A DNA stretch of 39,678 nucleotides, from assembly GCA_903923925.1 (NCBI GenBank), contig CAIXZF010000031.1, positions 1-39,678 on the forward strand. The letters run 5' to 3'. Positions 1 to 37,579 of the stretch are shown one piece after another (within the stretch, counting starts at the first letter, position 1; every line of letters begins with the position of its first letter). The position numbers were made by a program, and so were the translations under genes. The notes beneath the pieces are model-generated. The model was not told where the DNA came from. It searched no databases and was given only the letters and a program-made list of their open reading frames with translations. The stretch comes from an uncultured Bacteroidales bacterium. Its GTDB lineage: Bacteria; Bacteroidota; Bacteroidia; Bacteroidales; CAIXZF01.

Positions 1-181
1 GCAGGAGGCAGAAGGCAGAAGGCAGGAGGCAGGAGGCAGGAGGCAGAAGGCAGAAGGCAGGAGGCAGGAGGCAGGAGGCAGGAGGCAGGAGGCAGAAGGC
101 AGGAGGCAGAAGGCAGGAGGCAGGAGGCAGAAGGCAGAAGGCAGAAGGCAGGAGGCAGGAGGCAGTAGGCAGGAGGCAGGA
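1..181. repeat. Heptamer tandem repeat array (GGCAGGA/GGCAGAA)
   Basis: About 25 head-to-tail 7-bp units alternate irregularly between GGCAGGA and GGCAGAA, with one GGCAGTA variant, and run from the window edge to about 181. It is purine-rich on the + strand. The array ends about 50 bp before the nuoH start codon, so it separates nuoH from whatever lies upstream (nuoABCD would be expected). The same unit occurs inverted at the right end of the window and as a two-unit trace at about 39371-39386. It has no spacers of the CRISPR kind. It resembles the short tandemly repeated repetitive sequences found scattered in bacterial intergenic regions. The true left boundary is outside the window. Confidence 0.95.
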
Positions 182-232
182 AAAGGGTATTTAAAATAAT
201 GAAAAGAATTAAAAATCATTTAAACAGAGTAT

Positions 233-1321
233 ATGGCATTTAACATTTATGATTTCACCTCGTTTACGCAATCCATCGACCAGGGCCTGAATTCCGTTAT
301 GCCGGCATTTTGGGCTATGATCACCGAAATGGTGATTATTGGCGTTGCGATTCTTGCGTTTTACGCGTTGGTCGGACTGTTTCTTGTGTATGCCGAACGT
401 AAGGTTTGTGCATTCATGCAGAACAGAGTTGGCCCAAACAGGGTTGGCCCATACGGTATTATCCAGACCATCGCCGACTTGATTAAGCTATTGATGAAAG
501 AGCTCGTCGAGATCAAGAAGGCTGACAAGTTACTGTTTACCATTGCACCCTTTATTGTAATCATTGCTTCATTTATGGCTATAGCAGCTATTCCCTTTGC
601 AAAAGGACTTCATGCAATCGATTTCAATATTGGCGTACTTTATGTTGTAGCAGTTTCGTCGCTTGGGGTTGTTGGCATCCTGATTGCCGGCTGGTCATCG
701 AACAATAAATATTCATTAATCGGTGCAATGCGTAGTGGTGCGCAAATTGTGAGTTACGAACTTTCGGTTGGCTTATCACTAATAACAGCATGTATTCTGG
801 TTGGCAGCCTTCAGCTTTCTACTATTGTTGAAAGCCAGGCCGACGGATGGCTTATTTTCAAAGGGCATATACCCGCTGTTATCGCCTTTCTGATCTACCT
901 TGTTGCCAGTACTGCTGAAACAAACCGCGGACCTTTCGATCTTGCAGAAGCTGAATCAGAACTAACAGCTGGTTTCCATGTGGAATATTCGGGGATCAAA
1001 TTCGCGTTCTTCTTTCTGGCAGAATATATGAATATGTTTATAGTTGCCTCAATTGGTGCAACTATATTCTGGGGTGGCTGGATGCCTTTGCATATCGGAG
1101 GATGGGGATCATTTAATATGGTCATGGATTACATACCACCTTTTGTATGGTATATTGGAAAAACTGCAGTGATCATATGGATAATGATGTGGTTCAAATG
1201 GACCTTCCCTCGTTTGCGTATTGACCAGCTCCTGACTCTGGAATGGAAGTATTTATTACCCATCAACCTGTTCAACATCCTGCTGATGGCATTCATCGTA
1301 CTCATGGGTTGGCATTTTTAA
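233..1321 (+). CDS. nuoH: NADH-quinone oxidoreductase subunit H (NuoH)
   Basis: NuoH forms the quinone-entry end of the complex I membrane arm and contacts the NuoB/NuoD/NuoI connecting module. The 362-residue protein has about eight to nine hydrophobic segments. It carries the family hallmarks [20 protein letters not shown] (about residues 54-73) and [14 protein letters not shown] in the conserved charged loop (about residues 231-244). Length is close to the family norm, with a slightly long N-terminus. The ATG at 233 is chosen because it gives the full-length product; no strong Shine-Dalgarno is visible, as is usual in this phylum. It is the first gene of a nuoH-I-J-K-L-M-N run, and nuoABCD are not in the window. 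Confidence 0.97.
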
Positions 1322-1329
1322 TCAAGATT

Positions 1330-1809
1330 ATGAAAGACTTTTTCAACTACTTTTCAGAAATATTTAAAGGGGTGGCATCCTTGTTCAGAGGTATGAGAGT
1401 AACTGGTTATTACTTTTTTCACCCCGGCCAGATTGTAACACAACAGTATCCTGAAAACCGGAAAACACTTGTAATGTTAGACCGGTTTAAAGGAGAAGTT
1501 ATTATGCCTCATAACGAAAACAATGAGCATAAATGCACAGGTTGTGGAATCTGCGAACTTAACTGTCCAAACGGTTCTATTGAAATCATCTCGAAACAGA
1601 TACTGACAGATGAAGGCAAAAAGAAACGTATTATCGATCAGCACATTTACCATCTGGATATGTGCACCTTCTGCAGTTTATGTGTAAAGACCTGTCCATC
1701 AGATGCTTTGGCATGGGGACAAGAATTTGAGCATGCAGTATACGATCGTAGTAAACTTACGAAAGTGCTAAATCAAGCTGGTTCACAATTAATGAAAGGG
1801 GTAGAATAA
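1330..1809 (+). CDS. nuoI: NADH-quinone oxidoreductase subunit I (NuoI), 2x[4Fe-4S]
   Basis: NuoI is the ferredoxin-like subunit carrying clusters N6a and N6b, which pass electrons toward cluster N2 in NuoB. The frame is open further upstream, but the start is placed at ATG 1330. That gives 159 residues, begins 8 bp after the nuoH stop and leaves a normal N-terminal membrane-associating helix. Two complete cluster motifs are visible: C69-x2-C72-x2-C75-x3-C79P and C112-x2-C115-x2-C118-x3-C122P. The stop codon shares one base with the nuoJ start (TAATG), indicating translational coupling. Confidence 0.96.
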   Translation: MKDFFNYFSEIFKGVASLFRGMRVTGYYFFHPGQIVTQQYPENRKTLVMLDRFKGEVIMPHNENNEHKCTGCGICELNCPNGSIEIISKQILTDEGKKKRIIDQHIYHLDMCTFCSLCVKTCPSDALAWGQEFEHAVYDRSKLTKVLNQAGSQLMKGVE

Positions 1810-2327
1810 TGACAGGAAATCAACTTATGTTTGCGATTTTCGGGATGCTGATTATTATATTCTCCATCCTTACAGTTACCAGCCGCAGGATATTGCGGTC
1901 GGCAGTGTTTCTTCTTTTCGTGTTAGTAAGCACAGCCGGATTATACTTCATGCTTAACTATCAGTTTCTTGCAGCTGTTCAACTTACAGTTTATGCAGGC
2001 GGTATAGTGGTTCTGATCATCTTTTCCATTTTGCTAACCAGCCACATCAGTGAAAAATTTGAAGTTGTTGGGATGAAAAAGCAAATCTTCTCAGGACTCG
2101 CTGCCATAGCCGGTATAATTCTAACAATCAGCACTATACTTCAAACTGAATTTAAAGCAACAGAGGTAGCTGCAAAAGAAGTTGACATGGAAGCTATCGG
2201 TCTCAGTTTGCTGAACTATGGAGAAAACGGATTCGTACTTCCATTTGAGGTTATTTCAATTCTTTTACTGGCAGCAATGATTGCAGCAATCGTTATTGCC
2301 AAAAAAGGTAAAACTCAGAAACCATGA
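1809..2327 (+). CDS. nuoJ: NADH-quinone oxidoreductase subunit J (NuoJ)
   Basis: NuoJ is a small membrane-arm subunit next to NuoK and NuoA, near the first proton channel. The 172-residue protein has about five hydrophobic helices. The family core VQLTVYAGGIVVLIIF lies around residues 57-72, which corresponds to the conserved bulged helix of NuoJ. The start overlaps the nuoI stop by one base, and the end overlaps the nuoK start by 4 bp (ATGA). Confidence 0.95.
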   Translation: MTGNQLMFAIFGMLIIIFSILTVTSRRILRSAVFLLFVLVSTAGLYFMLNYQFLAAVQLTVYAGGIVVLIIFSILLTSHISEKFEVVGMKKQIFSGLAAIAGIILTISTILQTEFKATEVAAKEVDMEAIGLSLLNYGENGFVLPFEVISILLLAAMIAAIVIAKKGKTQKP

Positions 2328-2641
2328 ACACAGGAATACCATTAGAATATTTTTTGATCCTTGCCTCGGTAATGTTTTTCGTGGGGATCTACGGATTTTT
2401 AACGCGCCGCAACCTTATCACTATCCTGATGTCGGTTGAATTAGTACTTAATTCAGTGAATATCAATTTTCTGGCTTTCAACAAGTACCTTTTTCCGGAT
2501 CAGTTCCAGGGGCAATTCTTTGGATTAATAATTATAGCAGTAGCAGCAGCAGAAGCAGCAGTGGCAATTGCTATTATTATTAATATTTACAGGCATTTTA
2601 CCACAATTAATGTGGAAGATGTTGATCAAATGAAGTTTTAA
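2324..2641 (+). CDS. nuoK: NADH-quinone oxidoreductase subunit K (NuoK)
   Basis: NuoK is an MrpC-like three-helix subunit of the proton-pumping membrane arm. The 105-residue length is typical. The two membrane glutamates of this family are visible, E39 in the LMSVELVLNS motif and E77 in the AVAAAEAAVA motif. It overlaps nuoJ by 4 bp. A 52-bp AT-rich gap follows before nuoL, the first real gap in the operon; no terminator is seen there. Confidence 0.95.
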   Translation: MNTGIPLEYFLILASVMFFVGIYGFLTRRNLITILMSVELVLNSVNINFLAFNKYLFPDQFQGQFFGLIIIAVAAAEAAVAIAIIINIYRHFTTINVEDVDQMKF

Positions 2642-2693
2642 AAGACGCTACGCGCAACTTAAATTAAGTAATTAATTATCAGACAAATACAAT

Positions 2694-4619
2694 ATGATGG
2701 ATTTAAGCATTAGCATTTGGATACCGCTGATACCGCTCTTCATGTTTCTTTTGATCGGCTTGTTTGGACATCGTTTCAAACCTCTGGTGTCCGGCGTCAT
2801 GGGAACTATCGGGCTTGGTGTTGTAGCCATCCTTTCGTATACAATTGCCTACCAGTACTTCTTTGTTCAGGGTAAGGTTGATGGTGTATACCATAAAATA
2901 ATAGCATTTAACACAGTTTGGCTAAACCTTACAGACAAGCTGCATATCGATCTTGGTGTTCTTCTCGATCCGATAGCAGCCATGATGCTTGTTGTTGTTT
3001 CAACAGTATCGTTTATGGTTCACCTTTATAGCATTGGGTATATGCACGGGGAAAAGGGCTTTCACAGGTTCTTTGCTTTCCTGTCGTTATTCTCATTTTC
3101 TATGCTTGGGCTGGTACTGGCAACAAATATTTTCCAGATGTACATATTCTGGGAACTTGTAGGGGTTTCGTCATTCCTGCTTATTGGTTTTTACTATACA
3201 AAACCGTCAGCAGTTGCCGCCTCCAAGAAAGCATTTATTGTAACACGTTTTGCCGACCTGGGATTCCTTATCGGCATCCTGATACTTTCATTTATCACCG
3301 GCACATTCGATTTTATTACCTTAACAGATACCTCCGGTGAGGCAATTCGCCAGGGTGCCACTATCGGCTTTCTCGGAATGTCTGTAATGACATGGGCGAT
3401 GTTGCTCATTTTCATGGGAGGTGCAGGAAAATCAGCCATGTTCCCATTACACATCTGGCTACCGGATGCTATGGAAGGCCCTACTCCTGTTTCGGCACTT
3501 ATCCACGCAGCTACTATGGTTGTAGCCGGTGTTTACCTGGTTGCAAGGATGTTCCCTGTTTTCCATACATCTGCTCCGCATGCACTCGAAATAATTGCAT
3601 GGATTGGCGGATTTACTTCATTATTTGCTGCGGTTATCGCATGTACTCAATTGGATATCAAACGCGTGCTTGCATTCTCCACTCTTTCGCAGATCGGGTA
3701 TATGATGCTGGCGCTGGGTGTTTCGGGTTATGGTGGTGAAGAAGGCCTCGGATTTATGGCTTCAAACTTCCATCTATTCACACACGCTATGTTTAAAGCC
3801 TTGTTATTCCTTGGTGCAGGAGCTGTTATTCACGCAGTTCACAGTAATGTTATGAATGAAATGGGCGGACTGCGCAAATATTTACCCATCACACATATCA
3901 CATTTCTTATTGCCTGTCTTACTATTGCCGGAGTTCCTCCATTTTCAGGCTTCTGGAGCAAGGACGAAATCCTGGTAGCAGCCTTCCATTTCAACAAAAT
4001 TTTATTTGCTGTTGAATATGCTGTTGCAGGTTTAACTGCTTTTTACATGTTCCGCTTATATTTCACAGTATTCTGGGGCAAGGACGACCGTCATTATCAT
4101 CATACACCACATGAGTCACCATTAACCATGACGATTCCTCTGATGCTTCTGGCTGTTGCTTCAATTTTCGCCGGTTTTATTCCGTTCACAGAACTTGTAA
4201 CTTCTGATGGTGCAGCCTTCGAACCTCATATTGATTATATGATTGCAGTACCTTCAGTTTTAATAGGTATCGTGGGAATTATCGTTGCCATGGTAATGTA
4301 CCGTAAAGAAAACGGCATGCCAGAAAAAATGGCAAACAATCTCAAATACTTGTATAAATGGTCCTTTAATAAATTCTATATTGATGAAGTTTACATGTTC
4401 ATCACCAAGAAGATCATTTTCAACTATATCTCCAGACCGGTAGCCTGGTTCGACCGTCATATTATCGATGGCACCATGAACGGTATTGCAGGCGTAACCA
4501 ACCTGGTATCTTTCGAGATCCGGGGGTTCCAGTCAGGTCAATTACAGAAATATGCCTTTGTATTTGTAACAAGCGCATTAGCTCTGGTATTGGCATTCAT
4601 TTATTTATGGACAAATTAA
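2694..4619 (+). CDS. nuoL: NADH-quinone oxidoreductase subunit L (NuoL)
   Basis: NuoL is the distal antiporter-like proton-pumping subunit, with the long lateral helix that braces the membrane arm. The 641-residue protein is highly hydrophobic. It shows the family motifs IFWELVGVSSFLLIGFYY with the key glutamate E154, GGAGKSAMFPLHIWLPDAMEGP-type sequence around residues 242-263 with the conserved lysine, and a C-terminal extension ending in a hydrophobic helix. Two adjacent ATGs (2694 and 2697) make the exact start ambiguous by one residue. A 13-bp gap follows before nuoM. Confidence 0.96.
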   Translation: MMDLSISIWIPLIPLFMFLLIGLFGHRFKPLVSGVMGTIGLGVVAILSYTIAYQYFFVQGKVDGVYHKIIAFNTVWLNLTDKLHIDLGVLLDPIAAMMLVVVSTVSFMVHLYSIGYMHGEKGFHRFFAFLSLFSFSMLGLVLATNIFQMYIFWELVGVSSFLLIGFYYTKPSAVAASKKAFIVTRFADLGFLIGILILSFITGTFDFITLTDTSGEAIRQGATIGFLGMSVMTWAMLLIFMGGAGKSAMFPLHIWLPDAMEGPTPVSALIHAATMVVAGVYLVARMFPVFHTSAPHALEIIAWIGGFTSLFAAVIACTQLDIKRVLAFSTLSQIGYMMLALGVSGYGGEEGLGFMASNFHLFTHAMFKALLFLGAGAVIHAVHSNVMNEMGGLRKYLPITHITFLIACLTIAGVPPFSGFWSKDEILVAAFHFNKILFAVEYAVAGLTAFYMFRLYFTVFWGKDDRHYHHTPHESPLTMTIPLMLLAVASIFAGFIPFTELVTSDGAAFEPHIDYMIAVPSVLIGIVGIIVAMVMYRKENGMPEKMANNLKYLYKWSFNKFYIDEVYMFITKKIIFNYISRPVAWFDRHIIDGTMNGIAGVTNLVSFEIRGFQSGQLQKYAFVFVTSALALVLAFIYLWTN

Positions 4620-4632
4620 ACAGATTCAATCA

Positions 4633-6132
4633 ATGGATTTTCTCTCACTATTCGTTATAGTCCCTTTCCTTACAGTTGTAGGGATCGTTTTTTGCAAGGA
4701 CTTTAAACAGGTAAGATTAACAGCAGCAATTGGCATGACTATTCAGTTAGGACTTGCAGTTGCGCTGATTTTCATGTACCTGGCAGAACGCAAGGCAGGA
4801 AATATGGCTGAAATGCTCTTTATGGCAGATTACGTCTGGTTCCCGAGTCTCAATATCCGTTATGCAATCGGGGTAGACGGTATTTCCGTGGCCATGATTG
4901 GATTGACTGCTGTTGTTGTTATAACAGGAATTTTAGCTTCATGGGAGGTACAACACCTATCACGTGAGTTTTTCATCTCTCTGATTCTGCTTGCCACAGG
5001 AGTTTTTGGCTTCTTCATCACAATCGATCTTTTCTCGATGTTCTTGTTTTATGAACTCGCAGTTATCCCGATGTACCTTCTTATTGGTTTATGGGGTACC
5101 GGACCTAAAGAATACAGTGCTATGAAGCTGACGCTCATGCTCATGGGGGGTTCTGCACTTTTACTTGTTGGCATCTTCGGTTTGTATTTCAATTCTAACC
5201 CTGATGGTGGTCAACTTACGTTCCACATCCTGGAAATCAGCAAGGTTCATATTGATCCAATGGCACAACGCTTTTTCTTCCCCTTCACTTTTGTAGGATT
5301 CGGAGTTCTTGGTGCAATGTTCCCGCTTCACACATGGTCACCTGACGGTCACTCTTCGGCACCTACAGCAGTTTCAATGTTGCACGCAGGTGTACTTATG
5401 AAACTCGGTGGTTACGGTTGTTTCCGTGTAGCTATCTTCTTAATGCCGGATGCAGCACATGAACTGGGCTGGATCTTCCTGATTCTTACCACTATCAGTG
5501 TTGTGTATGGTGCTTTCGGAGCTATTCAGCAGAAAGACCTTAAATACATCAATGCATATTCATCAGTAAGTCACTGCGGACTTGTTCTCTTTGCTATTCT
5601 GATGATGAACAAAACTTCAATGAACGGTGCTATCCTTCAGATGATCTCACACGGTCTTATGACAGCCCTTTTCTTCGCATTAATCGGGATGATCTATGGC
5701 AGAACACATACGCGACTTATCAATGAAATGGGTGGACTTATGAAAATTATCCCCTTTCTTGGCGTAGTTTATGTTATCGCTGGTCTTGCGTCCCTTGGTC
5801 TTCCTGGTTTAAGTGGTTTTGTTGCTGAAATGACAATTTTTATTGGTTCATTTCAACATACAGACACATTCCACAGAGTATGCACTATTGTAGCCACCTC
5901 ATCCATTGTAATTACAGCTGTATACATTTTACGTGTTGTAGGAATTTTATTGATGGGGCCAATTAAGAATAAAGAGTTCGAAAATCTTGGTGATGCTAAA
6001 TGGTTTGAACGTCTTTCGCTTGGTACACTCGTTGTGGTAATTGCAAGTATTGGTCTTGCTCCACTGTGGTTATCAAATATGATAAACGACAGCCTGGTGC
6101 CAATCATCGAGAAATTAACGATGAATCTTTAA
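4633..6132 (+). CDS. nuoM: NADH-quinone oxidoreductase subunit M (NuoM)
   Basis: NuoM is the second antiporter-like proton-pumping subunit. The 499-residue protein has the usual 14-helix hydrophobicity. It contains the FYELAVIPMYLLIGLWG motif with its conserved glutamate and the motif MFPLHTWSPDGHSSAPTAVS around residues 231-250. The latter differs from the more usual LPDAH form by SPDGH. Start ATG 4633 follows nuoL by 13 bp, and a 39-bp AT-rich gap separates it from nuoN. Confidence 0.95.
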   Translation: MDFLSLFVIVPFLTVVGIVFCKDFKQVRLTAAIGMTIQLGLAVALIFMYLAERKAGNMAEMLFMADYVWFPSLNIRYAIGVDGISVAMIGLTAVVVITGILASWEVQHLSREFFISLILLATGVFGFFITIDLFSMFLFYELAVIPMYLLIGLWGTGPKEYSAMKLTLMLMGGSALLLVGIFGLYFNSNPDGGQLTFHILEISKVHIDPMAQRFFFPFTFVGFGVLGAMFPLHTWSPDGHSSAPTAVSMLHAGVLMKLGGYGCFRVAIFLMPDAAHELGWIFLILTTISVVYGAFGAIQQKDLKYINAYSSVSHCGLVLFAILMMNKTSMNGAILQMISHGLMTALFFALIGMIYGRTHTRLINEMGGLMKIIPFLGVVYVIAGLASLGLPGLSGFVAEMTIFIGSFQHTDTFHRVCTIVATSSIVITAVYILRVVGILLMGPIKNKEFENLGDAKWFERLSLGTLVVVIASIGLAPLWLSNMINDSLVPIIEKLTMNL

Positions 6133-6171
6133 CAATTAACAGAAATTTAAATTTCAATATAATTCAACACA

Positions 6172-7596
6172 ATGAGGTTAGAAGACTTTTTGTTAATGAG
6201 GCATGAATTATTGCTGACTTTGATCGCAATAATCATACTGATCGCTGAGATTTTCACGGACGACTTCAAAAAGCAGGGCATCCGTCCTTTGTCCATCATT
6301 CTGATGGCAATTGTTACGATCGTCGGCTTTTTACCTGCACCCACGGGCACCCTTTTCGGAGGGATGTACCAGGCAACAGATATGCGTCTGATGATGAAAA
6401 ACATCCTGAATATCGGTGCTTTGATAGTATTCATCCAATCAGCTTCATGGCTGAAAAGCGATGATAATCAGAATAAAGTCAGTGAATTTTTCTTACTGCT
6501 GATTTCGACCCTGATCGGTATGAACTTCATGATCTCCTCCGGAGATTTCCTGATGTTTTACCTCGGACTGGAACTTGCAACCATACCTATTGCCGCACTT
6601 GCTGCTTACGACAGGTACAGTAACAAGAGTTCTGAAGCAGGTATAAAGCTGATTCTGATATCTGCTCTTTCATCGGGAATATTACTATATGGTATTTCCA
6701 TGATCTATGGGACTGTCGGTTCTGTTTATTTCGACAAGGTTTCTGTAGCATACGGAGCAACTCCGCTTCAGATTATGTCGTTCATCTTCTTTTTTACAGG
6801 TATGGCCTTTAAGATCTCTATTGTTCCTTTCCATTTATGGACAGCCGACGTATATGAAGGTGCGCCAGTAAACGTAACTTCCTATTTATCGGTAGTTTCC
6901 AAAGGAGCGGCAGTATTTATTTTCAGCATTATGCTGGTAACTGTTTTCCAGAACATTGCTGCTATGTGGAAAGATGTAATGTGGATAACTGCTGCAATTA
7001 CAATGACTTTAGGGAACCTGTTTGCGATGCGGCAGAATAACCTCAAGCGTTTCCTTGCCTTCTCCTCAATTTCCCAGGCTGGTTTTATCATGCTTGGTAT
7101 TATTGGAGGATCAGAACTTGGTATGGCTGCAGTTGTTTATTACATTTTGGTTTACATTTTCTCTAATCTTGGTGCTTTCGGCGTGATTGCCGCAATATCT
7201 AATGCTTCAGGAGGCAAAGAAAATATGAGCGATTATGATGGCTTATATAAAACAAACCCGGCTTTATCGCTCACATTAACGCTTGCATTATTTTCTCTGG
7301 CAGGGATCCCTCCTGTTGCAGGTTTTTTTGGTAAATTCTTCCTTTTCACTGCTGTTGCAGAAAAAGGATATTGGTGGCTGCTAACAATAGCTGTATTGAA
7401 TACGATTATCTCACTTTACTATTATTTACTGCCGGTTAAAGCCATGTTTATCAACAAAGCAGAAACTTCGATAGCCTATTTCAAAAGCGACGGATGGACT
7501 AAAGTAGGGCTTATTATCTGCGTTGCGGGTATGGTAATTGTAGGTTTTGCCAGTGTTATTTTTGAATATATCAGGACTTTATCATTTGGGTTATAG
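6172..7596 (+). CDS. nuoN: NADH-quinone oxidoreductase subunit N (NuoN)
   Basis: NuoN is the antiporter-like proton-pumping subunit nearest the NuoK/J/A/H part of the arm. The 474-residue protein has the motifs FYLGLELATIPIAALAAY (conserved glutamate), MAFKISIVPFHLWTADVYEG around residues 205-224 and SLAGIPPVAGFFGKFFLF in the late helices. It is the last canonical nuo gene in the run. Only 43 bp separate its stop from the next start, with no terminator-like hairpin, so transcription probably continues into the following redox genes. Confidence 0.96.
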   Translation: MRLEDFLLMRHELLLTLIAIIILIAEIFTDDFKKQGIRPLSIILMAIVTIVGFLPAPTGTLFGGMYQATDMRLMMKNILNIGALIVFIQSASWLKSDDNQNKVSEFFLLLISTLIGMNFMISSGDFLMFYLGLELATIPIAALAAYDRYSNKSSEAGIKLILISALSSGILLYGISMIYGTVGSVYFDKVSVAYGATPLQIMSFIFFFTGMAFKISIVPFHLWTADVYEGAPVNVTSYLSVVSKGAAVFIFSIMLVTVFQNIAAMWKDVMWITAAITMTLGNLFAMRQNNLKRFLAFSSISQAGFIMLGIIGGSELGMAAVVYYILVYIFSNLGAFGVIAAISNASGGKENMSDYDGLYKTNPALSLTLTLALFSLAGIPPVAGFFGKFFLFTAVAEKGYWWLLTIAVLNTIISLYYYLLPVKAMFINKAETSIAYFKSDGWTKVGLIICVAGMVIVGFASVIFEYIRTLSFGL

Positions 7597-7639
7597 CTTG
7601 ATTCCACTGCGTTTCAAATACACCCCAAAACTAAATATT

Positions 7640-7981
7640 ATGGGAAATTTAACAAAAGGTAAGCATGTTATTCAGGAATTCGACGGTGTACGTTGTACAG
7701 TTGTTGAAACAGGAATTGGTTCTGAAAGGATGAACTTCCTGAAAGGTATTCTTGAAGCCAATAAGCTTGAAGTTAAAACGACGATTGAAAAGCAGGAAGA
7801 TGCTGCTGATAAATATTCGATTGGTGTTACTGATTTAGTTTTTAATCCTGTGATGGCAATCTATGCCAGAAAACTGTTTATGGAAGACGGCAGGATTATC
7901 ACAGCAGCTTTCTGGAACCAGCAAACCGATTATATTGATCCTCGTTACTGGCGTTTCAAGATCAGGAAAGAGAATACGTAA
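7640..7981 (+). CDS. Conserved-looking small protein of unknown function between nuoN and flxD
   Basis: I do not recognise this 113-residue protein. It appears soluble, has no cysteines, no signal peptide and no membrane helix, and reads as a mixed alpha/beta domain. A GIGSERMNFLKGILEANK helix lies early in the protein, and the C-terminal half is rich in aromatics (FWNQQTDYIDPRYWRFKI). The frame is open upstream, but ATG 7640 is preferred because it lies after the nuoN stop and starts a compact domain. Its position between nuoN and the Flx-type genes suggests an accessory or assembly role for one of these complexes. That is inference from context only. Confidence 0.75.
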   Translation: MGNLTKGKHVIQEFDGVRCTVVETGIGSERMNFLKGILEANKLEVKTTIEKQEDAADKYSIGVTDLVFNPVMAIYARKLFMEDGRIITAAFWNQQTDYIDPRYWRFKIRKENT

Positions 7982-8024
7982 CATTATGTTGTTCAACTCA
8001 TTATACTAAGCTAATATTAACGCT

Positions 8025-8477
8025 ATGGCTGAATTTGAACCAAGGATTGTGGCATTTGTGTGCAATTGGTGCACCTATGCCGGCGCCGACCTTACAGGTA
8101 CCAGCCGCATCAAGTATGCAACCAATGTGAGGATAATCCGATTCCCGTGTACAGGCAGGATCGATTTTATGCTTCTGCTTAAGGCTTTTGGAAATGGAGC
8201 TGATGGTGTAATGATTTCAGGCTGTCATCCGAACGACTGCCATTACACTTCTGGTAACTTCCATGCCCGCAGGCGCTGGATGATATTCCGCCGCCTGCTC
8301 GACTTTGCAGGAATCGACCACAGGAGAATTATTTTCTCATGGGTTTCTGCTGCCGAAGGTGCCAAATGGGCACAGGTTGTAAATACTGCTGTTGAAGAAT
8401 TCCGTCAGCTCGGACCTTATGACAATTATCACGCGGCTTCCAAAGAGCCATTGGAAAGAGAGGTAATCAATGGATGA
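8025..8477 (+). CDS. flxD: FlxD/MvhD-like [2Fe-2S] electron-transfer protein
   Basis: The protein belongs to the MvhD/FlpD family, whose members carry a [2Fe-2S] cluster and hand electrons from a hydrogenase or an NADH-oxidising module to HdrA. At 150 residues it matches the stand-alone form. Family motifs are intact: C13NWCTYAGAD, the C42 of RFPCTGRID, and GCHPNDCHYTSGN with C67 and C72. The gene heads a flxD-C-B-A order and overlaps flxC by 8 bp. In Desulfovibrio the equivalent flxABCD works with HdrABC as an NADH dehydrogenase/heterodisulfide reductase; no HdrABC is present here. The family assignment is firm, and the Flx name rests on the four-gene set. Confidence 0.88.
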   Translation: MAEFEPRIVAFVCNWCTYAGADLTGTSRIKYATNVRIIRFPCTGRIDFMLLLKAFGNGADGVMISGCHPNDCHYTSGNFHARRRWMIFRRLLDFAGIDHRRIIFSWVSAAEGAKWAQVVNTAVEEFRQLGPYDNYHAASKEPLEREVING

Positions 8478-9273
8478 TCTCAGAAAGAAAGCTAAAGATT
8501 TACTTGAAAGTCAAGCTGTTAATGTAATTATCGGTTATGGCGAAGGAACTTCTGGAGCAGTTCGGGCAATTTTTCCCCGTAAAGCTGAAGAAACCGACAA
8601 GCTTATCTATGATGACAGGTGCACTCAGAACCTCGCTGTTTACCTGATGAAGCACGAAATTAAGCATATGGAGAAAAAGGGCATTGTTGCTACTATTCCT
8701 GCAATGCGTAGTATTCTTCAGGTTGCTTCCGAATATCAGCTCAAAGAAGACGAACTGGTAATACTTGGAATTGGCCCGGATGGCAAGCTTGTTGATATTC
8801 CCGGTTTCAAAGCCATGGAAGACTACCTTGCTACCCAGGATTTTGGCATACAAGAGGATGACAAAGCAATACTCCGCAAAATCGATGCAATGAGCATGGA
8901 GGAGCGCTGGAGTTTCTGGAAAGACGAACTTTCGCCCTGCTTTAAATGCTATGCCTGTCGCGCTGCCTGTCCAATGTGCTATTGCACCCGTTGTTTTGTA
9001 GAAGTTAACACTCCACAATGGATTCCGATATCAGCCAATGAAATCGGAAATTTTGAGTGGCACCTCTTAAGGGCTATGCACCTTGCAGGTCGTTGCATCA
9101 ATTGCGGCGAATGCGGTCGTGCCTGCCCATTGGAAATCCCAATCCATCTTCTTACATATAAGATGACTGAGGATGTTCAAACTGATTTTGGCGTGACGGC
9201 AGGTTTAAAAGCCGACATGCCTTCCGTACTCTCAACATACAAACTGGAAGATAAAGAAACCTTCATCCGTTAA
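8470..9273 (+). CDS. flxC: FlxC-like 4Fe-4S dicluster protein
   Basis: This is a 267-residue iron-sulfur protein. The N-terminal ~150 residues lack cysteine clusters. The C-terminal part has a cysteine-dense block (C157, C160, C163, C167, followed by C170, C172, C175) and a second motif C209-x2-C212-x2-C215-x3-C219P, consistent with two [4Fe-4S] clusters and possibly an extra site. It lies in register between the MvhD-like and the FlxB-like genes, overlapping the former by 8 bp and leaving 3 bp to the latter. Its expected role is electron relay between the flavin subunit and FlxD. It could also be described as an HdrA-/FrhB-associated ferredoxin-like protein. Confidence 0.82.
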   Translation: MDDLRKKAKDLLESQAVNVIIGYGEGTSGAVRAIFPRKAEETDKLIYDDRCTQNLAVYLMKHEIKHMEKKGIVATIPAMRSILQVASEYQLKEDELVILGIGPDGKLVDIPGFKAMEDYLATQDFGIQEDDKAILRKIDAMSMEERWSFWKDELSPCFKCYACRAACPMCYCTRCFVEVNTPQWIPISANEIGNFEWHLLRAMHLAGRCINCGECGRACPLEIPIHLLTYKMTEDVQTDFGVTAGLKADMPSVLSTYKLEDKETFIR

Positions 9274-9276
9274 GCC

Positions 9277-10293
9277 ATGGATATCGAAAGGAAACTCATT
9301 AAACGCGCATCCCTCGGCAAGCTGGTAGAACAACTACGCGCTGAGGGCAAAGTGGTACTGGCGCCCAAAAAGAAAAAGAATGTGGTATTTTTCGAACCGA
9401 TCAATACGATCGACGAAATGAGCACCGACTATATAGCAACTACTCAGTCGCCAAAGGCAGCTGCCTTCCCAAAATCAGACCGGATTTTAAAGTTTGAGAA
9501 TGGGAAAGAAGGGATAAAGTTTGAGGGACAGCCAACTTCCGTTTATCCGGAAACAGTTGTGCTCGGTCTCAGACCCTGCGATGCTACAGGTTTTGATTCG
9601 CTGACCGCCATTTTCAATTGGGATTATAAAGATCAGTTGTACAACGACAGGTTGGCGAAGACTACCTTTATCGGTATTAGCTGTGCCAGCTGCGATGCAT
9701 ACTGTTTCTGTACTTCTGTAAAAGGTGGTCCGGGCAATACGCATGGAACTGATATACTGCTGACAGCTGTTGATGGAGGCGATTTTCTCGCTGAGATTGT
9801 ATCAGAGAAAGGCAAGAAGCTGGCAGTAAGCGGTCAGCAGTATTTTGAAGCTGATTCCGGTGCTGACAAAGAAAAATTCCTTGCGAATGTACCAGTGAAA
9901 TTCGACGTGGATACCCTGGTTCCAAAAGCCCAGAACAGTTTTGAAAGCCCTGTTTGGCTTGAGCAATCCTTGCGATGTATTGGCTGTGGTGCCTGCGCAT
10001 ATGTTTGTCCTACCTGTGCCTGCTTTGACATGCAAGATGAAACAACAGGTTCTAAGGGACAGCGTGTTCGTTGCTGGGACAGTTGTGGTTTCGGGCTTTT
10101 TACGCTTCACACTTCCGGGCATAATCCAAGAGAAGTACAAAGTGCCCGCTGGCGTCAGAGAGTACTGCATAAATTCAGCTACATGCCTGAACGCTTAAAC
10201 GTTGTTGGCTGTATAGGATGTGGCAGATGCAGCCGTGCTTGTCCTGTTGACATGAACCTGAGTGAACATCTTGTAAATTTAGCGGAGGCTTAA
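9277..10293 (+). CDS. flxB: FlxB-like 4Fe-4S protein (sulfhydrogenase beta / AsrA family)
   Basis: The 338-residue protein belongs to the family that includes the sulfhydrogenase beta subunit and anaerobic sulfite reductase subunit A. Visible hallmarks are LGLRPCDATG around residues 96-105, the CASCDAYCFC segment around 136-145, and two classical [4Fe-4S] motifs, C234-x2-C237-x2-C240-x3-C244P and C312-x2-C315-x2-C318-x3-C322P. It relays electrons between the FAD/NAD(P) subunit encoded just downstream and the other iron-sulfur subunits. The gene is 3 bp from both neighbours, so all four Flx genes are tightly coupled. There is no NiFe-hydrogenase large or small subunit in the window, so a hydrogenase role is not supported. 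Confidence 0.85.
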   Translation: MDIERKLIKRASLGKLVEQLRAEGKVVLAPKKKKNVVFFEPINTIDEMSTDYIATTQSPKAAAFPKSDRILKFENGKEGIKFEGQPTSVYPETVVLGLRPCDATGFDSLTAIFNWDYKDQLYNDRLAKTTFIGISCASCDAYCFCTSVKGGPGNTHGTDILLTAVDGGDFLAEIVSEKGKKLAVSGQQYFEADSGADKEKFLANVPVKFDVDTLVPKAQNSFESPVWLEQSLRCIGCGACAYVCPTCACFDMQDETTGSKGQRVRCWDSCGFGLFTLHTSGHNPREVQSARWRQRVLHKFSYMPERLNVVGCIGCGRCSRACPVDMNLSEHLVNLAEA

Positions 10294-10296
10294 ACT

Positions 10297-11136
10297 ATGT
10301 ATAAGGAAAATATTTATCTGCCCTATTTGATGAACATTGAAAGGGTTACCGAGGAAGCTCCTTTTGTAAAGACCTTCAGGCTGAAATTTGCCAACGAAGA
10401 AGAAGGCAAACAGTTTACCTATAAAACCGGACAATTCGGCGAATGGTCGGTATTTGGTGAAGGTGAATCCACATTTTGCATAGCCTCCGCCCCTACCCGC
10501 GAAGGCTATATCGAATGCACTTTCCGTCAGGCCGGACGCGTAACATCCGCTCTTGCCAGCTTAGGCGAGGGCGACCAGATTGGGTTCCGTGGTCCTTACG
10601 GCAATGTATTTCCGATTGAAGAATGGTATGGAAAAAGTCTGCTGTTCATTGCAGGAGGCATTGCACTTCCGCCAATGCGTTCCGTAATCTGGAATTGTCT
10701 TGATCTCCGGGATAAATTTAAAGATATTACCATTTTATATGGTGCCCGTGCTGTGAAAGACCTGGTGTACAAACAGGAGCTTGAAGCATGGAAAAATATG
10801 CCGGATGTAAACCTTCACCTCACCGTTGACCCTGGAGGAGAAACCCCTGAATGGAAGGGAGAAGTAGGCTTTGTACCAACAATCCTCGACAAAGTTGCAC
10901 CTGCAAGCAAAGATTGTATTGCAATTGTTTGTGGTCCGCCAATCATGATCAAATTTACCTTCCCTGTGCTCGAAAAGCTTGGATTTGCAGACAATATGGT
11001 CTACACAACTCTTGAAAACCGTATGAAATGCGGCATTGGCAAATGCGGCCGATGCAATACAGGCAGCGTTTATATTTGCAAAGACGGTCCTGTTTTCACA
11101 AGGGAACAGCTGAAAGGGATTCCTGCGGAATATTAA
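10297..11136 (+). CDS. flxA: FlxA-like FAD/NAD(P)-binding reductase
   Basis: This 279-residue flavoprotein belongs to the ferredoxin-NADP reductase-like group with a C-terminal [2Fe-2S] cluster (PyrK/sulfhydrogenase gamma type). It has the FAD-binding barrel in the first ~100 residues with a degenerate FCIASAP flavin motif, a nucleotide-binding segment beginning FIAGGIALPPMRS around residue 117, and VCGPPIMIKF around 211. The C-terminal cluster cysteines are C245, C250, C253 and C261. It would be the NAD(P)H-oxidising subunit of the Flx module. It is the last gene of the nuoH-flxA unit and is followed 10 bp later by an intrinsic terminator. Confidence 0.87.
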   Translation: MYKENIYLPYLMNIERVTEEAPFVKTFRLKFANEEEGKQFTYKTGQFGEWSVFGEGESTFCIASAPTREGYIECTFRQAGRVTSALASLGEGDQIGFRGPYGNVFPIEEWYGKSLLFIAGGIALPPMRSVIWNCLDLRDKFKDITILYGARAVKDLVYKQELEAWKNMPDVNLHLTVDPGGETPEWKGEVGFVPTILDKVAPASKDCIAIVCGPPIMIKFTFPVLEKLGFADNMVYTTLENRMKCGIGKCGRCNTGSVYICKDGPVFTREQLKGIPAEY

Positions 11137-11146
11137 AATATCGAAA

Positions 11147-11178
11147 AAAGGCTGTCAATAAAAATGACAGCCTTTTTT
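11147..11178 (+). terminator. Intrinsic terminator after flxA
   Basis: A perfect 11-bp stem (AAAGGCTGTCA, 11147-11157, with its complement at 11165-11175) encloses a 7-base loop ATAAAAA and runs into a T tract. It starts 10 bp after the flxA stop. Because the stem ends in A:T pairs, it could also work on the opposite strand. It is the first convincing terminator after nuoH. Confidence 0.92.
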
Positions 11179-11222
11179 ATTTATCACTATAACAATTTAA
11201 TTATCAATTATTTAAATATTTT

Positions 11223-11260
11223 ACTCAATACGTTGAGTTATTTTACTCAAGGTTTTGAGT
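11223..11260. promoter_or_regulatory. Twin palindromic operator candidate upstream of the HicB-like gene
   Basis: Two copies of the palindrome ACTCAA-n4-TTGAGT lie at 11223-11238 and 11245-11260. The 6-bp arms are identical and perfect in both copies, while the 4-base spacers differ (TACG and GGTT). The start-to-start distance is 22 bp, about two turns of DNA, which would put two bound dimers on the same face. They sit 30-67 bp upstream of the start at 11290 and overlap the region where its promoter must be. This suggests autoregulation. Confidence 0.6.
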
Positions 11261-11289
11261 ATTTTGTGTTTTTGTAAAAAAAGCTGAGT

Positions 11290-11499
11290 ATGAACGAAAT
11301 CATTTTTCTTGTTGAGGAATCAGATGAAGGCGGTTATATTGCTAAAGCCCTGGCAGAGAGCATTGTTACACAAGCTGAAACAAAAGAAGAACTAAGAGAA
11401 CAAGTAAAAAGTGCCGTTCAGTGTCCTTTTGAGGAAGAGAATTGTCCAGACATTGTTCATCTTCATTTTGTCAAAGGCGAAACTTTTGCAATACGATGA
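11290..11499 (+). CDS. HicB-like antitoxin family small protein
   Basis: The 69-residue protein resembles the short HicB-like family (IFLVEESDEGGYIAKALAES, followed by an ETKEELREQVKSAV helix and a C-terminal strand) that often sits beside a HicA/YcfA-type mRNA interferase. It consists only of the HicB partial-RNase-H-like fold and has no added ribbon-helix-helix or helix-turn-helix domain. No intact HicA follows. Directly after it there is only a 30-codon reading frame whose ATG overlaps this stop (ATGA). It is separated from the nuo-flx unit by a terminator and has its own upstream palindromes. Confidence 0.65.
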   Translation: MNEIIFLVEESDEGGYIAKALAESIVTQAETKEELREQVKSAVQCPFEEENCPDIVHLHFVKGETFAIR

Positions 11500-11709
11500 A
11501 AGTCCAACAAATCCCAGAGAGATGCATCATGGATTTCATTATACTAAAGGTTCTCCCGATAGATTTGAACGAAGAAATGGCGAAATAAATCAATGTGCAA
11601 ATCTACCAGCAAAGTAATTTACCAGATTTACATATCAAGGAATTATTTCCATCACAAAAAGGCAATTTCATGCCAACATCAATAAAATGGCTGACATTTA
11701 TCAATTTTG
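11500..11709 (+). other. Intergenic stretch, possibly a decayed hicA toxin gene
   Basis: About 315 bp separate the HicB-like gene from the cytochrome gene, and no intact gene is visible. A 30-codon ORF starts at 11496 and ends at 11588. In another frame, the translation around 11535-11615 contains GSPDRFERRNGE followed by PAK. This faintly recalls the GSH-x-R...NGE...IPAHK core of HicA toxins, so a degenerated toxin gene is possible. The rest of the stretch is AT-rich and holds the promoter candidate listed separately. Confidence 0.3.
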
Positions 11710-11740
11710 TTGGTTCAAAATAGGAAACAGACTAATTTTG
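11710..11740 (+). promoter_or_regulatory. Bacteroidota-type promoter for the heptaheme cytochrome gene
   Basis: TTG at 11710-11712, a 20-bp spacer and TAATTTTG at 11733-11740 match the primary-sigma consensus of Bacteroidota (-33 TTTG/TTG and -7 TAnnTTTG). It predicts a 5' leader of about 65-70 bases before the ATG at 11816. It is the best promoter match I noticed in the window. Confidence 0.55.
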
Positions 11741-11815
11741 ATTTTTATCACATCTAAGAATCTATACTCACTGCATTTTTGTTAAAAATCATTATAACCC
11801 AAAAATATTTACACT

Positions 11816-13315
11816 ATGAAATTCCCAAAATCGTTTTACAACTGGATGAGTATTTCAGGCTTTATCATTGCCCTGAACAGTCTGGTGCTGATCTTAATTC
11901 TCTTTATCCTCTCTCTTACATCCATGACGGGGAATACCTACCTTGGGGTGTTCATTTACATGGTACTTCCTGCCTTCCTGATTATTGGATTGTTAGCGAT
12001 CCCTGTCGGTATGCTTTGGGTAAAGAAAAGAAGGTACGAAATTGAAGGAACTGACCGCTGGCCACGACTGGATTTAAACAATAAAGATCACCGCAGTACT
12101 TTCATTAAAGTAGCAGTTATTACTTTTTTCTTCCTCATTGCTTCTGCAATGGGAAGTTATCAGGCCTTTACCTACACCGAATCCGTTGAGTTCTGCGGTA
12201 AACTCTGCCACAAAGTAATGGCTCCGGAGCACACTACCTACATGAATTCGCCACACGCCAAGGTTGCCTGTGTTGAATGCCATGTTGGTGAAGGTGCCGA
12301 TTGGTATGTAAAGTCGAAAATGTCGGGTCTTTATCAGGTTTACAGTGTACTTTTCAACAAATATTCACGTCCGATTGCAACTCCGCTTGAGAATTTACGT
12401 CCGGCAAGAGAAACCTGCGAGCGCTGCCACTGGCCAGAGAAATTTTATGCAACAAAATTACGTAACGAACGCAGATATCTCGCTGATACAAACAATACTG
12501 AGTGGAATATGTCGATGATGATGAAAATTGGTCCTTCATACAGCGCAATGGGCCTTAAAGAAGGCATTCACTGGCATATCAATAAAGATTTCAAGATCGA
12601 TTACATTGCAACTTCCCGCGACAGAGAGTCTATTCCATGGGTAAGACTTACAAATCTTAAAACCGGTGAAGTAAAGATATTTGAAGATGAGGAAGCTCCA
12701 CTTGATGCAAAGGCAAAAGATACGCTCGCAATACGTTCAATGGACTGCATGGATTGTCATAACCGTCCTTCACATCTTTACAAATCACCGCAAGTTTACG
12801 TTGACAATGCAATTGTATCCGGACAGATTCCTAAAGACATCCCTTTCTTTAAATATGCTGTAATGCAGGCACTCAAACTGCCATTCAAGACTACTCCTCA
12901 GGCAATGAGCTTCATTCACGATACGATCATCACCATTTACAAAGCTGATTATCCTGATGTTTACACTAAGGAATCCTCCAGAATTGAAAAGGCCATAAAG
13001 GTAATTCAAACAGAATATGCGAAGAATGCTTTCCCTGAAATGGGCGTTGAGTCGAGCAAATATCTCAACCACATCGGCCACCTTGAATCAATGGGATGTT
13101 TCCGCTGCCATTCCGATAAGCATAAAACTACCAAAGGCGAAGTTATCAAGAAAGATTGTAATCTCTGCCATACGTTCATTGCTCAGGGTCCAACAGGAAA
13201 GATGGACTACACCTCTGTTAACCAGAGTCTTGAATTCGTGCATCCTGTCAAACTAAGAAATGATGCATGGAAAACCGGCTTCTGCAGCGAATGTCATAAA
13301 AACCTGTTTGAATAA
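11816..13315 (+). CDS. Membrane-anchored heptaheme NapC/NirT-type cytochrome c
   Basis: This 499-residue protein has three hydrophobic helices near the N-terminus (about residues 12-36, 43-68 and 96-116) followed by a periplasmic multiheme domain. Seven heme-attachment sites are visible: C127-x3-C131-H132 (the unusual CX3CH form), then CXXCH at 152, 201, 311, 428, 448 and 490. The MNSPHAKVACVECHVGEG segment is typical of the NapC/NrfH quinol-dehydrogenase family. Most NapC proteins have one anchor helix and four or five hemes, so this is an enlarged variant. It probably takes electrons from menaquinol to a periplasmic acceptor, or returns them. No terminal reductase gene is adjacent. Confidence 0.85.
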   Translation: MKFPKSFYNWMSISGFIIALNSLVLILILFILSLTSMTGNTYLGVFIYMVLPAFLIIGLLAIPVGMLWVKKRRYEIEGTDRWPRLDLNNKDHRSTFIKVAVITFFFLIASAMGSYQAFTYTESVEFCGKLCHKVMAPEHTTYMNSPHAKVACVECHVGEGADWYVKSKMSGLYQVYSVLFNKYSRPIATPLENLRPARETCERCHWPEKFYATKLRNERRYLADTNNTEWNMSMMMKIGPSYSAMGLKEGIHWHINKDFKIDYIATSRDRESIPWVRLTNLKTGEVKIFEDEEAPLDAKAKDTLAIRSMDCMDCHNRPSHLYKSPQVYVDNAIVSGQIPKDIPFFKYAVMQALKLPFKTTPQAMSFIHDTIITIYKADYPDVYTKESSRIEKAIKVIQTEYAKNAFPEMGVESSKYLNHIGHLESMGCFRCHSDKHKTTKGEVIKKDCNLCHTFIAQGPTGKMDYTSVNQSLEFVHPVKLRNDAWKTGFCSECHKNLFE

Positions 13316-13332
13316 GGTATATATATTGTCCT

Positions 13333-13348
13333 CAGTGCTTTAGCACTG
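13333..13348. terminator. Short hairpin after the cytochrome gene
   Basis: A perfect 6-bp inverted repeat, CAGTGC-TTTA-GCACTG, lies 18 bp after the cytochrome stop. It has no T tract behind it, so terminator function is weakly supported; it may be a processing or pausing hairpin. It is in the 75-bp gap before the SDR gene. Confidence 0.35.
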
Positions 13349-13390
13349 CTAACAAAAGGTGCATTTACTTGTTATACAATAAATTGGTCG

Positions 13391-14875
13391 ATGAAAGTTC
13401 TTCTGACCGGATGTACCGGATATATTGGTAAACGATTGATGTTTCTGCTTGCTGAAAGAGGCGACGACCTGACCTGTTTTGTCCGGAATCCCGACAGGCT
13501 GGTTTATCCAAAACGGGCATTGAACGGAATCATCAGCTTTAAGGTTGATCTGCTTAAGAAAGTACCCGATTCGCTACAGACTCTTAACATTGATGTAGCC
13601 TTCTATCTTGTTCATTCGATGACTTCTTCCATTGGTAGTTTTGATGAAGAAGAAGCAGAGAGTGCCAGAAATTTTGCGAATTTCATTAGAGGAACCAATT
13701 GTAAACAGATTATTTATCTGAGTGGAATTTCCAATTCAGATAAATTAAGTAAACACCTTTCGTCCAGAAAAAATGTTGAAAGTATTCTCGAGTCCTCAGG
13801 CGTTCCTGTGACAGTATTGAGAGCAGGAATTATTGTTGGGTCAGGTAGTGCTTCTTTCGAGATTATCCGTGATCTGATGGAAAAAATGCCCATCATGGTA
13901 ACTCCTTTATGGGTTAAGACCTTGTGCCAGCCAGTTGCCATACGCGATGTAATGAAGTACTTTACAGGCTGCATGCTGAACGAGAAAACCTACAGGCAGG
14001 TTTTTGATATTGGTGGTCCGGAAATCCTGTCGTACAAAGAGATGCTTCTTCAATATGCCGGCATCCGCGGATTGAAACGGAGGATCTGGACTGTAAACTT
14101 TATCAGCCCGAGAATATCTTCGTATTGGCTTTATTTCGTTACATCTACCTCCTATTACCTGGCAGTAAACCTTGTTAACAGCATGAAAATTGAGGTTGTT
14201 TGCAAGGACAACCGCCTTCAGGAGATGCTCGGGATACAAACCGTTGCCTATAAAGATGCTGTAAAGCAGGCACTTGAACGTATTAATCTGGGTACAGTTG
14301 AATCCCGCTGGACAGATGCCCTCACTCTGAAGAAAAACAACCAGCAATTATTCGATTACATGGATGTTCCAACTTATGGTACCATGGGAGATAAACGAAT
14401 TTTCAAAATAGAAAAGAATCCGGAAGAAGTATTAAACCGGGTTTTTTCTATTGGAGGAAATGTTGGTTGGTATTACATGGACTGGACCTGGCAGATCAGA
14501 GGAAAAATAGACAGATTAGTTGGTGGTGTAGGTTTGCGCAGGGGCAGAAGGAGTCCTACAGAGTTAAATCCCGGTGATGCACTGGATTTCTGGCGGGTGT
14601 TAGTTGCCGACAGGCGACAGATGCGACTGTTGCTATTTGCGGAAATGAAAGTTCCCGGAGAAGCCTGGCTCGAACTGAAGATTATTAAAAAAGAAGACGG
14701 ATATTACCTGCATCAGCAAGCCACTTTTATGCCGATGGGACTGAGTGGCAGGCTATATTGGTACCTGCTTCTCCCAATTCATATTTTTATTTTTAAAGGA
14801 ATGGGTAAAAATATTATTCATAAGAAATTGAAAAATCAACCTCAATTTTTAACCAAAAATCCAGCCAATGGTTAA
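13391..14875 (+). CDS. SDR-family NAD(P)-binding protein with C-terminal DUF2867 domain
   Basis: The 494-residue protein begins with a Rossmann nucleotide-binding motif, LLTGCTGYIGKRL (residues 4-16), of the atypical SDR type. A YLSGIS strand and an FLVHS-like segment (FYLVHSM) follow, as in YbjT-like proteins. The C-terminal ~150 residues (YMDWTWQIRGKIDRLVGGVG, then DFWRVL and LLFAEMKVPGEAWLEL) match the DUF2867 domain, which usually trails such SDR domains. The substrate is unknown. It stands alone after the cytochrome gene and overlaps the following membrane-protein gene by 8 bp, so the two are probably co-translated. Confidence 0.85.
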   Translation: MKVLLTGCTGYIGKRLMFLLAERGDDLTCFVRNPDRLVYPKRALNGIISFKVDLLKKVPDSLQTLNIDVAFYLVHSMTSSIGSFDEEEAESARNFANFIRGTNCKQIIYLSGISNSDKLSKHLSSRKNVESILESSGVPVTVLRAGIIVGSGSASFEIIRDLMEKMPIMVTPLWVKTLCQPVAIRDVMKYFTGCMLNEKTYRQVFDIGGPEILSYKEMLLQYAGIRGLKRRIWTVNFISPRISSYWLYFVTSTSYYLAVNLVNSMKIEVVCKDNRLQEMLGIQTVAYKDAVKQALERINLGTVESRWTDALTLKKNNQQLFDYMDVPTYGTMGDKRIFKIEKNPEEVLNRVFSIGGNVGWYYMDWTWQIRGKIDRLVGGVGLRRGRRSPTELNPGDALDFWRVLVADRRQMRLLLFAEMKVPGEAWLELKIIKKEDGYYLHQQATFMPMGLSGRLYWYLLLPIHIFIFKGMGKNIIHKKLKNQPQFLTKNPANG

Positions 14876-26262: not shown

Positions 26263-27957
<1,695 letters not shown>

Positions 27958-35777: not shown

Positions 35778-35791
35778 TGTAGTTTCCAGGT

Positions 35792-37567: not shown

Positions 37568-37579
37568 AATATTGTGAGA

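Follow-up and report, generated by a model that had tools for sequence, protein, structure and literature searches.

Headless complex I genes most likely nested within an Hdr-Flx operon of an uncultured Bacteroidales bacterium

Introduction

What does a FlxABCD module do at the tail of a complex I gene run that has no Hdr gene beside it? The question is raised by a stretch of 39,678 nucleotides, here called the window, which is contig C31 (CAIXZF010000031.1) of the 117-contig genome of an uncultured Bacteroidales bacterium (assembly GCA_903923925.1, G000 in our genome set; rated 100% complete and 1.74% contaminated). The window carries the complex I genes nuoH to nuoN, an open reading frame (ORF) of 113 codons that we call orf113, and flxDCBA. 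A first-pass annotation, made from the letters of the window, took Flx for an orphan without HdrABC, and proposed that it replaces the NADH-input module (NuoEFG) of an 11-subunit complex I or links NADH to it in a new way.

Papers are cited here for excerpts of their text. According to these excerpts, enzymes of the HdrA type use FAD to split pairs of electrons, sending one branch to ferredoxin and the other via HdrB to a disulfide; the version fed by NADH is FlxABCD-HdrABC, known as the NADH dehydrogenase/heterodisulfide reductase of Desulfovibrio vulgaris (Ramos et al. 2015, as cited in PMC10553843, PMC6037941 and PMC5296606). The donor of the 11-subunit 'headless' complex I is drawn as 'Xred' for B. 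fragilis, where deletion of nuo left NADH:quinone activity unchanged (excerpt of PMC7002350); for Prevotella, the role of the complex is left open between respiration and antiport (excerpt of PMC6560451). In Desulfitobacterium, ferredoxin is a proposed donor and the direct donor is still in question (excerpt of PMC11238625). In Nuo-Bfu clusters, the genes of a bifurcating module, BfuABC, sit amid those of complex I (excerpt of PMC9304861). The probable nested operon, the recurrent linkage and the Mvh swap in one genome reported below make a specific hypothesis on the donor of the Bacteroidales 11-subunit complex I testable.

The Hdr genes lie on a second contig

The genome searches recommended by the first-pass annotation gave results on both counts. 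The HdrA2 model matched C83:25627-27621 (E 2.6e-228) over model positions 1-644, that is, all but its C-terminal MvhD part. The end of contig C83 carries hdrC (191 amino acids, aa), hdrB (301 aa), hdrA (666 aa), nuoA, nuoB, nuoC and nuoD. An AGGCAG(A/G) repeat starts right after the nuoD stop codon and runs to the contig end, and the same repeat opens the window, followed by nuoH. The annotation's statement that no Hdr gene is present is thus true of the flx neighbourhood in the window and wrong for the genome. The search for nuoEFG found a second nuo cluster on contig C113 (L141), which includes NuoE, NuoF and a NuoG-like stretch that matches weakly; the nuo run itself contains none, as had been claimed, while a NuoE/F/G-like set lies further along the window at 32094-38113 (-).

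The sole other genome of the window's family (f1) in the genome set, G487, has an uninterrupted counterpart. Its contig C16 (L082, also named locus L152; public record JAKLIX010000023.1, Bacteroidetes bacterium RA.bin97) reads hdrC-hdrB-hdrA-nuoA-B-C-D-H-I-J-K-L-M-N-orf113-flxD-C-B-A, with proteins 58-83% identical to those of the window's genome. There nuoD is directly followed by nuoH, with ~38 bp between the two matches, whereas in the window's genome the repeat apparently occupies this place. No NuoE/NuoF/NuoG-like match falls between nuoA and nuoN, either in L082 or in the two halves here.

Together, the hdrCBA-nuoABCD genes and repeat at the end of C83 and the gene order in G487 indicate that the 'orphan' Flx is a contig artefact: hdrCBA most likely heads the same operon as the nuo-flx genes of the window and is split from them by a contig break. 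'Missing' partner genes can be artefacts of such breaks. Intergenic gaps are at most 83 bp at every operon junction seen (the nuoD-nuoH stretch of the window's genome falls outside the sequence seen), and a terminator-like hairpin stands directly 3' of flxA. TAnnTTTG, the -7 promoter box of Bacteroidota, occurs twice within 450 bp upstream of hdrC and in neither the nuoN-flxD nor the hdrA-nuoA gaps. Since counts of sigma-70-type promoters (36 vs 33.0) and of terminators (13 vs 11.5) in positions 1-14000 are at chance, we rely here on the flxA hairpin and the gap lengths.

Composition of the Hdr and Flx proteins

The proteins resemble HdrABC-MvhADG (5odc), with HdrA, HdrB and MvhD/FlxD homologous over most of their length. 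HdrA aligns to 5odc_A over residues 3-664 (E 1.5e-207), and HdrB to 5odc_B (E 1e-39) with both CCG motifs present. The motif cysteines of both, taken as ligands, line up with the 5odc chains when read by eye. HdrC has the cysteine spacing of two 4Fe-4S motifs, and HdrC models matched it below cut-off. MvhD is the 2Fe-2S subunit that docks on HdrA, and FlxD residues 3-132 align to the MvhD chains of 7bkb, 9sw2 and 5odc in the PDB (E 3.8e-45). We also considered whether HdrA has lost its MvhD part and rejected this, as the 666-aa HdrA ends at the point in the HdrA2 model at which the MvhD part starts, and FlxD covers that part.

FlxA matches PF00175, PF00970 and PF10418 above their cut-offs, corresponding to NAD(P)-binding, FAD-binding and DHODB Fe-S domains, and its nearest solved chain is a sulfhydrogenase gamma subunit. 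FlxB and FlxC were called from their domains and gene order, with no Flx-specific model among the matches. A scan of genome contigs with FlxC found no relative, and the window's genome has no second FlpD. It also yielded no match to PF04358 (DsrC), for which an E. coli control was positive. A gene for a 55-aa 2[4Fe-4S] ferredoxin is present on contig C35 (L273:510-677). The same contig carries a second, different HdrC/HdrB/HdrA-like trio of 227, 356 and 345 aa (L011:6317-9108).

Hdr-Flx and complex I across the order

FlpD is present in 114 of 395 genomes of the phylum and in 130 of 393 genomes of the order. From these 130 order genomes, 39 with flx-type loci were drawn by FlpD score and then by layout, which is not an unbiased draw and counts relatives separately; for comparison, 20 FlpD-negative genomes were taken, namely those among the matches listed, of 263. 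Named loci are the best 80 of 573 and overlap the genome handles (L151 = G521, L152 = G487, L196 = G554). A locus is called unlinked when no nuo gene lies within the stretch fetched, and contig ends hide some links.

Every one of the 39 flx-type genomes examined has a matching HdrA, the very co-occurrence that the first-pass annotation had named beforehand as refuting an orphan Flx, and we abandon that claim. Apart from the window's own genome, 35 of 38 genomes have hdrA no more than 4 kb upstream of flxD; in G487, with its nested operon, the distance is ~10 kb. HdrA is on a separate contig in G000, in G451, where the flx locus is cut by the contig end, and in G584, where hdrA is not adjacent. 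Among the best 80 of 573 named loci, 74 have an adjacent hdrA; the six without are the nested L152, L196 with flxD behind nuo-orf113, and L170, L180, L189 and L202. The usual order is hdrCBA-flxDCBA, and nuo genes in between are the exception. At the nuoN-flxD junction, flxD stands behind nuoN-orf113 in f1 and in G554. Five flxDCBA loci (L122, which is G584, L170, L180, L189 and L202) have no hdrA within 4 kb upstream; going by their names, several of them presumably come from termite-gut symbionts.

Nearly all flx genomes (38/39) encode an 11-subunit-type NuoH, vs 10/20 FlpD-negative genomes (Fisher p 2.6e-5, ignoring kinship and genome size). The 11- and 14-subunit types were told apart by match length (942-951 nt), a criterion set after viewing the list, and the cluster content behind the NuoH type was checked in G000, G487, G617, G521, G637, G736 and partly G710. 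Thus, the headless type of complex I needs no Flx, and Flx genomes nearly always have the headless type.

The two gene sets are also found close together more often than expected. NuoH lies within 15 kb of flxD in 5 of 39 genomes (0.49 expected) and within 30 kb in 10 of 39 (0.98 expected), counts that take relatives separately and so overstate independence. The arrangements differ: the order is nested in G000 and G487, tandem (hdrCBA-flxDCBA-nuoA..N) in G617, G521 (L151) and G637, and divergent in L157, L158, L159, L161, L165 and L172, while in G736 and G590 nuo-orf113 lies ~7-8 kb before hdrC. In G710 (L271, G710:C22), one strand reads, as far as fetched, nuoD-H..N-orf113-hdrC-hdrB-hdrA-mvhD-mvhG-mvhA-protease; mvhG and mvhA match VhuG and VhuA, and the last gene of the run is hydrogenase-protease-like. 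Since Mvh here stands beside the same type of pump, it is the shared part, HdrA with its ferredoxin output, that appears to matter, and not Flx as a substitute for NuoEFG. The recurring partner of headless complex I is the Hdr bifurcator.

A quick HdrA tree (SH-aLRT support only; 81 of 108 sequences, without L172 and G710) carried a long-branch warning and did not hold the outgroup together. On this tree the linked/unlinked label needs 6 changes, and also 6 when only well-supported branches are used.

orf113 has matches in 73 of the 393 genomes of the order; that in G451 (22 bits, within a long frame) is probably spurious. Of the 30 loci whose gene order was examined, 28 have it directly 3' of nuoN, and the remaining two are short or cut. 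It is also present in FlpD-negative genomes, for example G399, G404, G414 and G423. Because it goes with nuoN whether or not flx follows, orf113 is a candidate accessory protein of the 11-subunit complex I. It has no Pfam or NCBIfam match; a loose-threshold Pfam search with four orf113 proteins gave one insignificant DUF3234 match in one of the four, and its AlphaFold model (pLDDT 75.7, moderate) had no PDB match at E <=0.001.

Possible routes of electrons into complex I

We lean towards reading hdrCBA-nuoABCDHIJKLMN-orf113-flxDCBA as a single operon for two enzymes coupled by ferredoxin, an FlxABCD-HdrABC bifurcating NADH dehydrogenase and an 11-subunit complex I without NuoEFG. FlxA and FlxB would oxidise NADH, and FlxC and FlxD would hand the electrons to HdrA. 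The FAD of HdrA would split them, with one branch passing through HdrC and HdrB to a disulfide acceptor and the other to ferredoxin. In turn, headless complex I would oxidise ferredoxin through NuoI, pass the electrons on to menaquinone and pump ions. The nesting may serve to co-express a maker of ferredoxin with a pump that consumes it. As the operon would hold both a source and a sink of ferredoxin, we infer ferredoxin coupling, and the route from HdrABC-Flx through headless complex I to menaquinone is the most likely one on the gene content. The link between Flx and complex I that the first-pass annotation suspected stands in the sense that linkage recurs in several orientations, although it involves the whole Hdr-Flx enzyme and probably runs through ferredoxin.

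Both enzymes are known; the probable nesting of the genes of one within the operon of the other is a new arrangement, of which we found no description in the parts of the open literature searched. As in known FlxABCD-HdrABC systems, all seven genes are present, FlxD belongs to the MvhD family and FlxA is of the NAD/FAD type. By homology, the enzyme would bifurcate electrons from NADH to ferredoxin and a disulfide. Unlike in the usual arrangement, a whole 11-subunit complex I and orf113 would separate hdrA from flxD. In contrast to Desulfovibrio, where DsrC is the postulated partner, no DsrC was found in the window's genome, and DsrC does not define the family. The input here is Flx and thus NADH, unlike the MvhAG hydrogenase of HdrABC-MvhADG: MvhA and MvhG are absent beside flxD and present in G710. 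The complex I shares the nuoABCDHIJKLMN composition, with no nuoEFG in the cluster, of the headless complexes described in excerpts for B. fragilis (PMC7002350) and Prevotella (PMC6560451), but would differ from them in sharing one operon with a putative ferredoxin-reducing bifurcator. The separate nuo cluster with NuoE and NuoF on C113 does not bar membership of the headless class. Nuo-Bfu, as far as the excerpt describes it, likewise combines a bifurcating enzyme and complex I in one operon, with menaquinone the predicted acceptor; there Bfu stands in for NuoEFG within the cluster, whereas here Hdr-Flx, a different class of bifurcator, would bracket nuo.

Several points weigh against this reading, besides the biased draw of the 39 genomes. 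The mechanism is deduced from sequence, and no DsrC was found in the genome that could be HdrB's high-potential disulfide acceptor. The probable join of C83 and C31 owes its specificity only to gene content and the relative G487. The AGGCAG(A/G) repeat makes it less specific, with 280 exact 21-mer matches across the genome, several of them near contig ends; it also recurs at the right end of the window (39482-39565). As the repeat is common near other contig ends, it is by itself no proof of the join. Upstream of hdrC, a search for the fuller -33/-7 promoter pattern gave nothing. Knowledge of the complete nested order comes from two genomes of a single family, and in G554 (= L196, family f110) flxD follows nuoN-orf113 with hdrCBA on another contig and no nuo after it. 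For the majority of the Hdr-Flx loci examined, no nuo gene is nearby, although contig ends conceal some links. On the HdrA tree, shuffled labels need 11.4 changes vs the 6 seen, so linked rows cluster with their kin, and the changes may be gains or losses. Finally, a Hyf/Ech-like cluster on contig C115 (L142; weak matches of 24-37%) could be an alternative oxidiser of ferredoxin.

One alternative is a direct assembly in which HdrABC-FlxABCD is docked on NuoI/NuoC and the low-potential electron goes from HdrA to NuoI with no free ferredoxin. A single operon with hdr at the head of nuo and flx at its tail would suit such a supercomplex. The excerpt of PMC11238625 cites a hypothesis in which the 11-subunit complex I offers various donors a docking platform, and the Nuo-Bfu operons (excerpt of PMC9304861) set a precedent for a bifurcating module within complex I. 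However, in most of the Hdr-Flx loci examined nuo is not linked, and arrangements differ, which fits loose ferredoxin coupling better; nor was an additional docking gene seen in the operon save orf113, itself also found without flx. We regard a supercomplex as unlikely. A wider proposal, at present speculative, is that headless complex I in Bacteroidales receives its electrons from the HdrABC bifurcator family, and that HdrABC-FlxABCD and complex I of this lineage are joined in one membrane-attached machine coupling NADH oxidation to bifurcation and ion pumping, its input interchangeable between NADH (Flx) and hydrogen (Mvh).

Equally doubtful is the view that the operon merely co-regulates anaerobic energy genes, and that Hdr-Flx and complex I are not directly coupled in electron flow. 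It would account for the absence of a visible nuo link in most of the 39 flx genomes, and for named Planctomycetes and Chlorobiaceae loci where the stretch fetched has hdr-flx but lacks nuo. It does not explain well why linkage recurs in different orientations, or why Mvh replaces Flx beside the same complex I type in G710.

The proposal of the first-pass annotation, in which FlxABCD docks directly on the Q-module as NADH input with no HdrABC in the path, now looks improbable. Its attraction lies in the nuo cluster without nuoEFG and in flxD standing right behind nuoN-orf113, both in f1 and in G554 of another family. Against it stand the HdrA in every flx genome examined and the match of FlxD to MvhD chains of solved Hdr complexes, an overall alignment and not one of interface residues. 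The 11-subunit-type NuoH of half of the 20 FlpD-negative genomes and the Mvh hydrogenase as input module in G710 also disfavour it.

Very improbable is an entry of NADH into complex I through the proteins of 32094-38113 (-): part of the same set lies near flxA in G487, its NuoF-like protein scores 492 bits in the NuoF family, and a Chloroflexi genome has nuoEFG in an operon apart from its 11-subunit nuo genes (excerpt of PMC5736913), but this score is below the NuoF cut-off, the protein has a C-terminal ferredoxin domain, the NuoG-like partner has a GltD part, and four further NuoE/NuoF sets exist elsewhere in the genome.

NuoE/F/G-like modules in the window and elsewhere in the genome

The set at 32094-38113 (-) comprises a NuoE-like protein, the NuoF-like protein and a 1227-aa NuoG-GltD-Fdh-like fusion. 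We take the pairing of a ferredoxin-domain NuoF-like with a GltD-NuoG-like protein to be the make-up of soluble HydABC/Bfu-type enzymes, which also counts against a role as NADH input of complex I. CxRxCH-type motifs are metal ligands, and none was seen by eye in the Fdh-like part of the fusion. Homologues of part of the set lie ~2.5 kb 3' of flxA in G487 (L152). Four more NuoE/NuoF/NuoG-like sets are found on contigs C70, C25 (two) and C63 (L143, L144, L145), a large stock of HydBC/Bfu-like modules. The genome has six PF01512 (NuoF-family) matches, all beside NuoE- or NuoG/Fdh-like genes and none RnfC-looking.

Gene run of the window

The features of the run are collected in Table 1. The first-pass annotation had called the genes correctly, with nuo followed by flxDCBA on one strand, and the gaps of at most 43 bp from nuoN onward and the hairpin after flxA were borne out. 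It had counted four genes after nuoN; the four flx genes are right, and there are five ORFs, orf113 having been omitted. The nuoN-orf113 and orf113-flxD gaps are 43 bases each, flxD and flxC overlap by 8 bases, and the flxC-flxB and flxB-flxA gaps are 3 bases each.

Table 1 Features of the window from its left end to the hairpin after flxA
Feature	Position	Strand	Basis or remark
AGGCAG(A/G) 7-bp tandem repeat	1..185		contig end, 5' of nuoH; probable assembly break
nuoH	233..1321	+	start of the same-strand run
nuoI	1330..1809	+	two 4Fe-4S motifs in translation; start codon inferred, listed ORF 1243-1809 is longer
nuoJ	1809..2327	+	run position and match to relative L082
nuoK	2324..2641	+	run position and match to relative L082
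nuoL	2694..4619	+	run position and match to relative L082
nuoM	4633..6132	+	run position and match to relative L082
nuoN	6172..7596	+	TIGR01770 above cut-off
orf113 (113 aa, no family)	7640..7981	+	first ORF 3' of nuoN
flxD (MvhD/FlpD family)	8025..8477	+	PF02662, E 8.8e-49
flxC (4Fe-4S dicluster protein, two 4Fe-4S motifs)	8470..9273	+	domain matches
flxB (sulfhydrogenase beta / HydB/AsrA-like Fe-S protein)	9277..10293	+	domain matches
flxA (FAD/NAD-binding, sulfhydrogenase gamma / AsrB-like, DHODB-type Fe-S)	10297..11136	+	domain matches
Palindromic terminator-like hairpin (A-run, stem, T-run)	11144..11178	+	directly 3' of flxA

An Rfam search of the window gave no match at gathering scores. 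Further along the window, an ABC-F-type-looking ATPase, judged by eye, is split into two overlapping ORFs of 400 aa and 155 aa (26278-27923, +), possibly by a frameshift. About 0.7 kb 3' of flxA lies a gene for an NrfH-like membrane cytochrome with six CxxCH motifs and one wider-spaced haem-like motif (11816-13315, +), a possible outlet for menaquinol.

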